From the IMG/VR virus record IMGVR_UViG_3300032046_000029, positions 1-58,728 of that record: a stretch of DNA of 58,728 bases; one strand, given 5' to 3'. This stretch comes from a virus. How positions within the stretch are numbered: the stretch's first letter is position 1; every line of letters starts with the position of its first letter. The notes under the pieces are model-generated. The model ran no database searches. It saw only the letters and a program-made list of their open reading frames with translations, and had not been told where the DNA came from. Positions 39,204-41,761 of this stretch are shown here, in pieces. The position numbers and the translations under genes are program-made.

Positions 39204-39293
39204 AACCCAAGGGCAAGGTGCGAGCCATTTTGTGGGTGAAAACCAAGAGCGAAGTGCGAGCCAGGCAGAGAGTGAAAACCATCAACCATGTGC
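39186..39293. repeat. three 36-bp tandem repeats
   Basis: Three consecutive 36-bp units, each beginning GAGCCA and ending in TGC, with a central GTGAAAaCCA block; units diverge by about a third. They are in phase with the small gene at 39200. Confidence 0.75.
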
Positions 39294-39319
39294 GACAAGA
39301 AAAGGAGAACCATGACTAA
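39200..39319 (+). CDS. 39-residue basic repeat protein
   Basis: GTG at 39200 overlaps the preceding stop (GTGA) and the stop overlaps the transposase-like gene start, so it is translationally linked on both sides. The 36-bp tandem repeat gives three 12-residue units starting VKPKGKVRA, VKTKSEVRA and VKTINHVRQ, all basic. Function unknown; perhaps RNA or DNA binding. Confidence 0.5.
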   Translation: MKPKGKVRAILWVKTKSEVRARQRVKTINHVRQEKENHD

Positions 39320-40064
39320 GAAGCAGGACCGGAGACCAGACCCTAAGCCCCGCAAGCATGCCCAGTTGTGGCAGTGCTATCTGTGGTGGGATGAACTGGT
39401 GGAGATGCGCAAGCGCCACACGTTGCGTATTAGCAGCGTGGAGGCCGGCAAGTCCAACCTCGATGCGCAGTACGAGCGCGACATGATGGGTGAACTTGCT
39501 CTCGATGCACAGGTCCATAACATCAAGAAAGCTATGGTGAATTGCGGGGAGGCAGTCGGCCCCGTGTGGGATTGGCTTACCAGCATTAAGGGCCTGGGTG
39601 AAGGATCGCTGGCCGCGCAACTCCTGGCGCAGATAGATGACATCGGGAATTTTGCGACGGTGAGCAAACTCTGGCGCTTCGCAGGGTGGGCAGTCCTAGA
39701 CGGCAGGGTCGAGCGCAACCAGAAGGGGGAAAAGAGCCACTACAATCGCCGCCTCAAGTCCATCTGTTGGCTGATCGCGGACCAATTCGTCCGCCAGCAG
39801 ACGCCTACCTATGCCGGCCTGTACTATGAGGAGAAGGAGCGCCAGCGTCGCTTGCACCCTGAGAAGGCCAAGGGCGACAACGGCAAGTGGCAATTCAACG
39901 ATGGGCATATTGACAACCGCGCACGGCGTAAAGTCGCCAAGGTCTTTCTGCAACACCTGTGGGTGGTGTGGCGGCAATCGGAGGGATTGCCCGTAACCGA
40001 GCCCTACGTCCAGGCGGTGATGGGGCACACGAACATCATAGAGCCGCCATCTATGGACTTATGA
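39312..40064 (+). CDS. IS110-type Transposase_20 domain protein without the catalytic half
   Basis: 250 residues from ATG at 39312. The C-terminal half matches the Transposase_20 domain of IS110/IS116 enzymes: a helix-hairpin-helix-like LTSIKGLGEGSLAAQLLAQI, then FATVSKLWRFAGWAVLDG and SHYNRRLKSICWLIADQF, with the Ser-containing region of the family. The RuvC-like DEDD domain that normally precedes it is absent; the first 100 residues are Arg-rich and helical instead. It lies directly upstream of the structured RNA region, and IS110 enzymes use structured bridge RNAs. The link here is only suggestive. Confidence 0.65.
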   Translation: MTKKQDRRPDPKPRKHAQLWQCYLWWDELVEMRKRHTLRISSVEAGKSNLDAQYERDMMGELALDAQVHNIKKAMVNCGEAVGPVWDWLTSIKGLGEGSLAAQLLAQIDDIGNFATVSKLWRFAGWAVLDGRVERNQKGEKSHYNRRLKSICWLIADQFVRQQTPTYAGLYYEEKERQRRLHPEKAKGDNGKWQFNDGHIDNRARRKVAKVFLQHLWVVWRQSEGLPVTEPYVQAVMGHTNIIEPPSMDL

Positions 40065-40334: not shown

Positions 40335-40456
40335 GTAGCAGATTGACAACTGAATGAGAGTATCGAGGGCTTCGGCCTTCGCCCACCCGCCTGGACTGCT
40401 AGGGCATAGCGGGCCTGAGAACCCGCGAGAGGCCAGGATCGAACCTGGTACCAGGC

Positions 40457-40557
40457 CGGTGGGCGGCGACTGAGGACCGCTTGGGGGCGAAAAGGTGAAG
40501 CCTGCGCGAGGGCCAGGGGCCAGCGCAGAAACGCGGGATCGTTACCCGCCGCCTCCA
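40457..40557 (+). ncRNA. structured RNA unit 0 (most diverged)
   Basis: CGGTGGG (40457-40463) can pair with CCCGCCG (40545-40551), followed by a Cys-like hairpin AACG/CGTT. It is flanked 3' by a 22-nt box (GGCAGTCGGGAAAGTCCGAG plus GC, 40563-40584) that recurs after unit A. The upstream segment 40360-40450 has an AGGGCTTCGGCCTTCGCCC hairpin resembling the one at 46013. No coding frame. Confidence 0.45.
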
Positions 40558-40629
40558 CTTTCGGCAGTCGGGAAAGTCCGAGGCGTGGCAGCCTGGGGCG
40601 GGTAACATTCAGCAAGGAAAAGGAGAACT

Positions 40630-40809
40630 ATGACCAAGCAGAAACAGAGCAAGGAGCAAGTCCGTGAGGGGAAATGCATCACCTGTGGTGAACGCATCAC
40701 GGTGATCTATCGTAATGGCAAGGCATACCGCACTATGTGCTCTTGCCAGAACAAAGGTAATGGCCAGCGGAACCGCCAGAACTATCCTGGCATTGATGCG
40801 ATCATCTGA
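40630..40809 (+). CDS. 59-residue zinc ribbon protein
   Basis: ATG at 40630 behind AAGGAGAACT. The pattern CITCGERITVIYRNGKAY, then MCSC, gives C-x2-C and C-x-C. It is a small zinc ribbon with a basic tail, placed between structured RNA unit 0 and unit A. Confidence 0.6.
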   Translation: MTKQKQSKEQVREGKCITCGERITVIYRNGKAYRTMCSCQNKGNGQRNRQNYPGIDAII

Positions 40810-40876
40810 GCATCAAGGGCGATACCCTGCCCGTGCTACGGCACGAAGTGGTGCGATAATGCGGAGAGCCGCGCCT

Positions 40877-40915
40877 AGCGTGACAGCGCGGAGAGACGGC
40901 TTAACAAGTGAACAT
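40877..40915 (+). ncRNA. conserved 5' box of unit A
   Basis: AGCGTGACAGC (40877-40887), a short gap, then GAGAGACGGCTTAACAAGTG plus AACAT directly before the acceptor-like strand. The same boxes precede unit B at 41228-41265 with 26 identical bases. Confidence 0.7.
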
Positions 40916-41110
40916 GCACGGGCGGCGTGACGGCGAACACGCTGATTAGAATCTCAAGCCGGATAGCACACTTGGGAAACCGCACACGGCGAGAAGCCAC
41001 CGCTAAGTAGCGGCCCTGGGCCTCCTGGACAGGCCCGACCCGAAGTGGCTAGGGGGAACAAGTTGTCTGACAATGCCGGCAAAGTAGGTTCGATTCCTAC
41101 CCCGTGCACC
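40916..41110 (+). ncRNA. structured RNA unit A with tRNA-like ends
   Basis: 195 nt. 5' GCACGGG (40916-40922) pairs with 3' CCCGTGC (41101-41107), followed by ACC. Just inside is a perfect T-arm: GTAGG, TTCGATT, CCTAC (41084-41100). A D-arm-like GCGT/ACGC hairpin follows the 5' strand. In place of an anticodon arm there is a large domain closed by GCCGG (40958) with CCGGC (41076), containing a three-way junction AGCCA/TGGCT with stems CCGCT/AGCGG and GGGCCT/AGGCCC. There is no T8 and no anticodon loop, so this is not an ordinary tRNA. Confidence 0.65.
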
Positions 41111-41114
41111 TTCC

Positions 41115-41136
41115 GGCAGTCGGGAAAGTCCGAGGC
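41115..41136 (+). ncRNA. 22-nt box shared with unit 0
   Basis: GGCAGTCGGGAAAGTCCGAG plus GC, identical to 40563-40584, followed by hairpin GGCTT/AAGCC. Confidence 0.7.
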
Positions 41137-41265
41137 TTGGCAAGCCGTGGTTAATATCGGACAGTAAGCGGAAGCCAGCAATATTGGAAGCCAGATCCGA
41201 AACCGACCGGATGACGTAACCGACAATAGCGTGACAGCCGGAGAGACGGCTTAACAAGTGAACAT

Positions 41266-41531
41266 GTGCGGGCGGCGTGGCGGATGACACGCAGGCTATA
41301 AAAGAAGCTGATGCCTGGGCAAATGTGGGGAACGTTAGACCCCAAAATAAAACGCAACTCAGCAGGATGTGGCCTGAATTGACAGGCTAGTGGCACTGAG
41401 GCTTCGGGAGATAAAACCGATGATACCGCAAGCAGAAGGTAGCGAGAACTGCTTGTTTGGGTGTGAGCAAGGTCAAAGTGCCCCACTTCTTAGTCCTGGC
41501 CCAGCAGGTTCGACTCCTGCCCCGCGCACCA
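41266..41531 (+). ncRNA. structured RNA unit B with tRNA-like ends
   Basis: 266 nt. GTGCGGG (41266-41272) pairs with CCCGCGC (41521-41527), followed by ACCA. The T-arm is GCAGG, TTCGACT, CCTGC (41504-41520). Compared with unit A, acceptor pair 3 changes from A-U to G-C and pair 2 from C-G to U-G. The inner domain is closed by TGGGC (41316) with GCCCA (41499) and holds hairpins GGGG/CCCC, GCCTG/CAGGC, AGTG/CACT and AAGTG/CACTT. The inner domain differs completely in sequence from unit A but sits in the same place. Confidence 0.65.
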
Positions 41532-41761
41532 TCCCAATAACGAGACGGGCCGCGAGTAACAGGAGAGGGTATGCCGGGTCTGGGTGTACCGGGGACTGGC
41601 CTAGCCCAAGCCGAGCCAGCGGAAAGGCGAACGAACCGGCGAGAAAGCGGCCCACTGCCAGCAGTACGACAGCAGAGGAACGGCGCTGATGGCTGGCAGG
41701 AGGTGGTACGGGGTTCCCGGCGATCTGGCAGCCGGGAGTCCACCTAAAGCGAGGAGGACAG

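Follow-up and report, generated by a model that had tools for sequence, protein, structure and literature searches.

What kind of RNA has the two ends of a tRNA but a large domain in place of the anticodon arm? The question is raised by a mostly non-coding stretch of about 1.1 kb in the IMG/VR virus record IMGVR_UViG_3300032046_000029, whose whole length of 58,728 bases is called the window here. Two such units, A and B, are found in this stretch together with a shorter tRNA-like domain, TLD0, and repeated boxes of conserved sequence. The best explanation, which has about an even chance of being right, is that the stretch is a divergent and reduced or degenerate relative of the arrays of tRNAs and RNase P RNAs found in phages, with tRNA-like domains acting as RNase P substrates and as punctuation around minimal P-like RNAs. 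Of the RNase P fold, these P-like RNAs would retain little beyond the core helices P2 and P4, and they would alternate without spacers with TLD0, A, and B. The explanation is based on the tRNA-like geometry of the units, the similarity of the boxes to the cores of conserved regions I and V of RNase P RNA (P RNA), the tRNA-trimming ribozyme, the abutting layout, and the presence of the same layout in other phages.

The tRNA-like geometry of A and B is beyond chance. In each unit, two bases separate a 7/7 acceptor stem from a 5-bp D-arm, the 8-base loop of the D-arm contains GG, and the loop of the 5/5 T-arm reads UUCGAUU or UUCGACU. A scan for a 7/7 acceptor, a D-arm with GG, and a 5/5 T-arm, spanning 100–500 bases, has exactly two matches in the window, and these are A and B. 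On shuffled DNA the same scan gives 3.75 matches per 3.05 Mb, and requiring an ACC tail lowers this to 0.25 per 3.05 Mb; about 0.005 elements with such a tail are expected by chance per window, where two are observed. The stems and arms that the original prediction, made by a model from the letters of the DNA, had assigned to the two units are present, as is the change of acceptor pair 3 from A-U in A to G-C in B. The acceptor pairs have probabilities of 0.92–1.00 in RNAfold, and the fold energies of the units are just modestly below those of shuffles (z −1.8 and −1.9).

The anticodon arm is replaced by about 138–140 bases in A and about 210–211 in B. These inner domains had been predicted to be closed by different helices, and two different helices can indeed be read from the sequence (GCCGG/CCGGC in A, TGGGC/GCCCA in B), but the minimum-energy fold of B closes its domain with a slightly different one. 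Homology between the two inner domains was not detectable (p about 0.08).

Units A and B are structured tRNA-like RNAs without an anticodon arm, and are neither tRNA, tmRNA, nor members of an Rfam family, in agreement with what had been proposed. Searches against all Rfam 15 families at E≤10 give no match to either unit, group I introns, GOLLD, ROOL, and HEARO included. Their anticodon arm is absent, they are not recognised by ARAGORN or by the tRNA model, and ARAGORN finds no tRNA gene in the whole window. The G3.U70 pair of tmRNA is missing (A3-U70 in A, G3-C70 in B), and no tmRNA model matches either unit as a whole.

The element preceding A had been taken for a third, diverged copy of the units, but is a domain of a different type. 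TLD0 has no proper D-arm. Searched alone, it aligns to the ends of the tmRNA model RF00023 (E 0.0013; 12.3 bits, below the gathering score of 47), and it scores 15.6 bits, likewise below gathering, against the permuted tmRNA model. By these matches it resembles the tRNA-like domain of a tmRNA without the mRNA region. Just upstream of TLD0, positions 40380–40465 have a strong fold with four arms, which includes a palindromic hairpin resembling a T-arm (CCAGG ATCGAA CCTGG).

The boxes are the second component of the array. They had been described as identical stretches of 26 and 22 nt around the units. Conserved flanks do exist, and are longer than claimed: the box before A and B (box 1) consists of 12 identical nt plus 63 nt at 84%, extending into the unit, and the box after a unit (box 2) has 33 nt at 94%. 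Box 2 follows TLD0 and A but not B. Copies of a box are identical or nearly so, and the interiors are not detectably related.

By sequence, these flanking boxes resemble conserved regions I and V of P RNA. The 33-base box contains GGAAAGUCCGAG, a sequence shared exactly with the region I core of several P RNAs of Anaerolineae; in the box preceding A and B, CGGCUUA corresponds to the core of region V. The two cores are able to form helix P4, with six pairs and a bulged U; helix P2 is possible between the bases that precede each core, and the order is that of RNase P. In unit 2, P2 would have eight pairs and an A.A, and the minimum-energy fold includes it without constraints. A UAG precedes the P2 3' strand by a few bases, which is also true of several genuine P RNAs. 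A descriptor consisting of GAAAGTCC and then CGGCTTA within 40–420 bases was scanned over 3.05 Mb of fetched DNA, and was found twice in the window and otherwise just in loci carrying RNase P RNA. Shuffles contain it 13 times per 30.5 Mb, or about 0.025 times expected per window, for a descriptor picked after the resemblance had been noticed.

The repeated element is better described as alternating tRNA-like domains and RNase P-like cores (Table 1). A and B remain unclassified, as the original prediction had it, but the boxes that flank them can be read as parts of a family with a name. The evidence supports a link of the boxes with RNase P rather than membership.

Table 1. Elements of the array, in the order in which they occur.
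Feature	Positions	Strand	Description
TLD0 (tRNA-like domain)	40483–40560	+	78 nt; acceptor GGGGGCG/CGCCTCC with G3.U70; T-arm GCGGG-ATCGTTA-CCCGC
Box 2, copy 1	40558–40590	+	Conserved-region-I-like GGAAAGTCCGAG; possible P2 5' strand 40561–40569, P4 5' strand 40574–40580
RNase P-like unit 1	40561–40903	+	From P2 5' strand to end of CGGCTTA; contains the 59-aa open reading frame
Small open reading frame	40630–40809	+	59 aa; CxxC and CxC; preceded by AAGGAG; inside RNase P-like unit 1
Box 1, copy 1	40876–40915	+	Possible P2 3' strand 40882–40891; region-V-like CGGCTTA 40897–40903
Unit A	40916–41110	+	Acceptor GCACGGG 40916–40922 / CCCGTGC 41101–41107; D-arm 40925–40942; large inner domain replacing the anticodon arm, closing helix 40958–40962/41076–41080; T-arm 41084–41100; tail ACC
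Box 2, copy 2	41110–41142	+	Possible P2 5' strand 41113–41121; P4 5' strand 41126–41132
RNase P-like unit 2	41111–41265	+	About 155 nt; directly between A and B
Box 1, copy 2	41227–41265	+	Possible P2 3' strand 41233–41241; region-V-like CGGCTTA 41247–41253
Unit B	41266–41531	+	Acceptor GTGCGGG 41266–41272 / CCCGCGC 41521–41527; D-arm 41275–41292; large inner domain replacing the anticodon arm, closing helix 41316–41320/41499–41503; T-arm 41504–41520; tail ACCA

Other phages carry recognisable RNase P RNAs between ordinary tRNA genes, in the layout seen in the window. An IMG/VR query for a T-loop closely followed by the region I core yielded contigs of phages that encode genuine RNase P RNAs. 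In contigs L208, L215, L217, L218, L221, L222, L226, and L230 these RNAs adjoin tRNA genes, with 0–3 bases between. The P RNAs of L217, L218, L221, L222, L226, and L230 score above gathering. Those of L208 and L215 are highly significant model matches, yet below the gathering score, and most of the specificity domain is missing from their alignment to the model. Both conserved regions are present in L225, L227, and L229, which are not above gathering among the results listed; in these contigs, too, the P RNA abuts tRNA genes. In L215 a 221-nt P RNA stands between tRNA-Arg(CCG) and tRNA-Arg(CCT), and in L208 a 235-nt P RNA follows tRNA-Asn. Copies of the L215 RNA, 91–97% identical, occur in the cultured Microbacterium phages A3Wally, Big4, and Zooman (MZ150783, ON637770, OK040793); in A3Wally the RNA occupies an unannotated gap between tRNA genes. 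Arrays combining tRNA, tmRNA, and RNase P RNA can be found at 2438–2853 and 6827–7193 of L208, where GOLLD is present too, and at 376–694 of L217. No report of a phage-encoded P RNA was found in the literature searched, which was drawn from an incomplete paper library.

The proposed mechanism involves transcription, processing, catalysis, and a cargo function of the array. The whole stretch would yield a single precursor transcript. Each tRNA-like domain could then be cut at its 5' end by RNase P, whether this is the enzyme of the host or phage core RNA joined by the host RnpA protein, because an acceptor stem with a T-arm and ACC(A) is close to a minimal substrate. Such cuts would separate the P-like RNAs from the tRNA-like RNAs and free both, and tRNA-like ends would serve as cleavage points much as tRNAs may do around the phage P RNAs. 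The inner domains, in the position of the anticodon arm, may be cargo for which a tRNA serves as a stable scaffold. In type A P RNA, the C-domain is able to cleave without the S-domain, although with reduced efficiency (PMC5839562). In a stronger and rather unlikely form of the proposal, the array would be a self-contained set of enzyme and substrate, in which core-only RNase P RNAs of about 150 nt free, in cis, tRNA-scaffolded RNAs with unrelated cargo domains.

Several results weigh against an RNase P origin of the boxes. No Rfam RNase P model matches at E≤10, even when a 181-base stretch is searched alone, and a search of the record with RF00010 (RNase P RNA class A) gives no match in the window. 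Within conserved region I, GAGGAAAGUCC, the part GGAAAGUCCGAG is exact, but the preceding GAG is replaced by CGG. In region V (ACAGAA..GGCUUA), CGGCUUA is present and ACAGAA is replaced by GGAGAGA; the P RNA of L225 likewise departs from ACAGAA. Because GAG and ACAGAA are missing, the boxes do not stand out from background in full-width profiles of the two regions built from genuine P RNAs; the region-I-like sequence of the boxes has the top region I score of the window. The descriptor scan was not a blind test. P2 is just modestly better than random pairs of positions (p 0.025 in unit 2, 0.165 in unit 1), and in unit 2 the region I strand has a competing local hairpin partner. Helix P1 (CACUU/AAGUG) was set aside, as it overlaps the tRNA-like tails. 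The specificity domain (regions II and III) and region IV were not recognised by inspection or by Rfam, unit 1 contains an open reading frame, and the record has no RnpA gene. Finally, searches for a homologue of the array gave none in IMG/VR, in phage or plasmid records, in related viral records, or in about 800 Chloroflexota genome searches. In IMG/VR both exact and looser box patterns were used, and some matches read as unrelated sequence. The model R1 gave chance-level matches alone in 42 related viral records, about 400 Anaerolineae genomes, and about 400 Chloroflexota genomes, and phage relatives found via the AAA ATPase show no synteny at the array locus.

A rival explanation is that the elements are duplicated tRNA-like cassettes without any RNase P, whose fixed flanks are signals for recombination, processing, or transcription, and whose likeness to RNase P is coincidental. 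This is possible, if less probable than descent from a tRNA and RNase P RNA array. It would fit the conservation of the boxes but not of the interiors, the lack of an RNase P model match and the failure of the full-width profiles, and the serine recombinase gene nearby. However, the joint pair of P4 cores is rare and stands in RNase P order with P2 possible, and it is placed relative to the tRNA-like domains exactly as RNase P RNA is relative to tRNAs in other phages.

Two further explanations concern the units themselves. A and B could be phage tmRNAs in reduced form, their mRNA region replaced or shortened, and TLD0 a further remnant: TLD0 matches tmRNA ends and has G3.U70, phages with a P RNA often have a tmRNA in the same array (L208, L217), and ARAGORN suggests a tag in B when its threshold is relaxed. 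This origin is improbable; the third acceptor pair of A and B is not that of tmRNA, both have a real 5-bp D-arm, and neither is matched as a whole by a tmRNA model. A permuted tmRNA or tRNA, in which the 3' end of A pairs with the 5' end of B, was also considered and rejected; two G.U pairs would allow it, but the ends pair better within A and within B. Still more improbable are tRNA genes whose anticodon loop is interrupted by an unusual intron. When introns are permitted at a relaxed threshold, ARAGORN does obtain a tRNA-Lys(CUU) from B by removing an intron of 190 nt, but there is no group I match, the inner domain of A is small for a group I intron, the exons of A form no anticodon stem by inspection, and the flanking boxes would be left unexplained. 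An ordinary or intron-containing tRNA was rejected on the ARAGORN results.

The array lies in a record with genes for terminase, portal, tape measure, serine recombinase, integrase, beta clamp, and an AAA ATPase. Its host is likely to be a member of the Chloroflexota, judging from sequence relatives in Anaerolineae genomes: the nearest cellular relative of the AAA ATPase (59%) is in one, and a fragment related to the Transposase_20-like protein upstream of the array (43%) is in another. This Transposase_20-type protein is short (258 aa, 39288–40064), and its phage relatives are annotated as hypothetical proteins. An IS110-like bridge RNA was considered on account of this gene and rejected; the relatives are hypothetical proteins and the RNAs are tRNA-like. 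Between about 40,300 and 41,760 a single convincing small open reading frame is present, whose product has no Pfam match above cut-off and no phage match. From unit B to the next gene, at 41535–41760, about 225 GC-rich bases contain no convincing gene and have a fold not clearly better than shuffles.

A self-contained array, if true, would represent a novel type of RNA element, with ribozymes among the smallest bacterial-type RNase P RNAs. The window may show an extreme form, in which tRNAs have turned into tRNA-like carriers and the ribozyme has been reduced to its core. This bears on the minimum size of RNase P RNA, on the maturation by phages of their own tRNAs, and on natural tRNA scaffolds that display structured RNA. 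Since P RNA between tRNA genes occurs in cultured phages, it is testable now.

Compared with known systems, A and B share with tRNA the acceptor stem, the D-arm with GG, the T-arm with TTCGA, the discriminator A, and ACC(A), and differ from it in carrying 138 and 211 bases where the anticodon arm would stand. With tmRNA they share a tRNA-like domain that closes a large inner domain, whereas their D-arm is paired and G3.U70 and a whole-unit model match are lacking; in TLD0, G3.U70 and tmRNA-like ends are present. The archaeal type T RNase P RNA is about 200 nt long. In Pyrobaculum this RNA is minimal and its specificity domain degenerate (PMC5839562), which is the point of likeness; it is an archaeal cellular gene and larger, and the units in the window keep fewer conserved nucleotides. 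From class A RNase P RNA (RF00010, including the reduced phage forms in L208, L215, L217, and A3Wally) the units differ in having no P3, specificity domain, GAG before region I, ACAGAA, or Rfam match, and in a distance from region I to region V of just 130 nt in unit 2, versus 172–309 nt in genuine phage RNAs with their ends found. They are like it in GGAAAGUCCGAG and CGGCUUA, in a possible P4 with a bulged U together with P2 in the same order, and in adjoining a tRNA or tRNA-like domain without a spacer.
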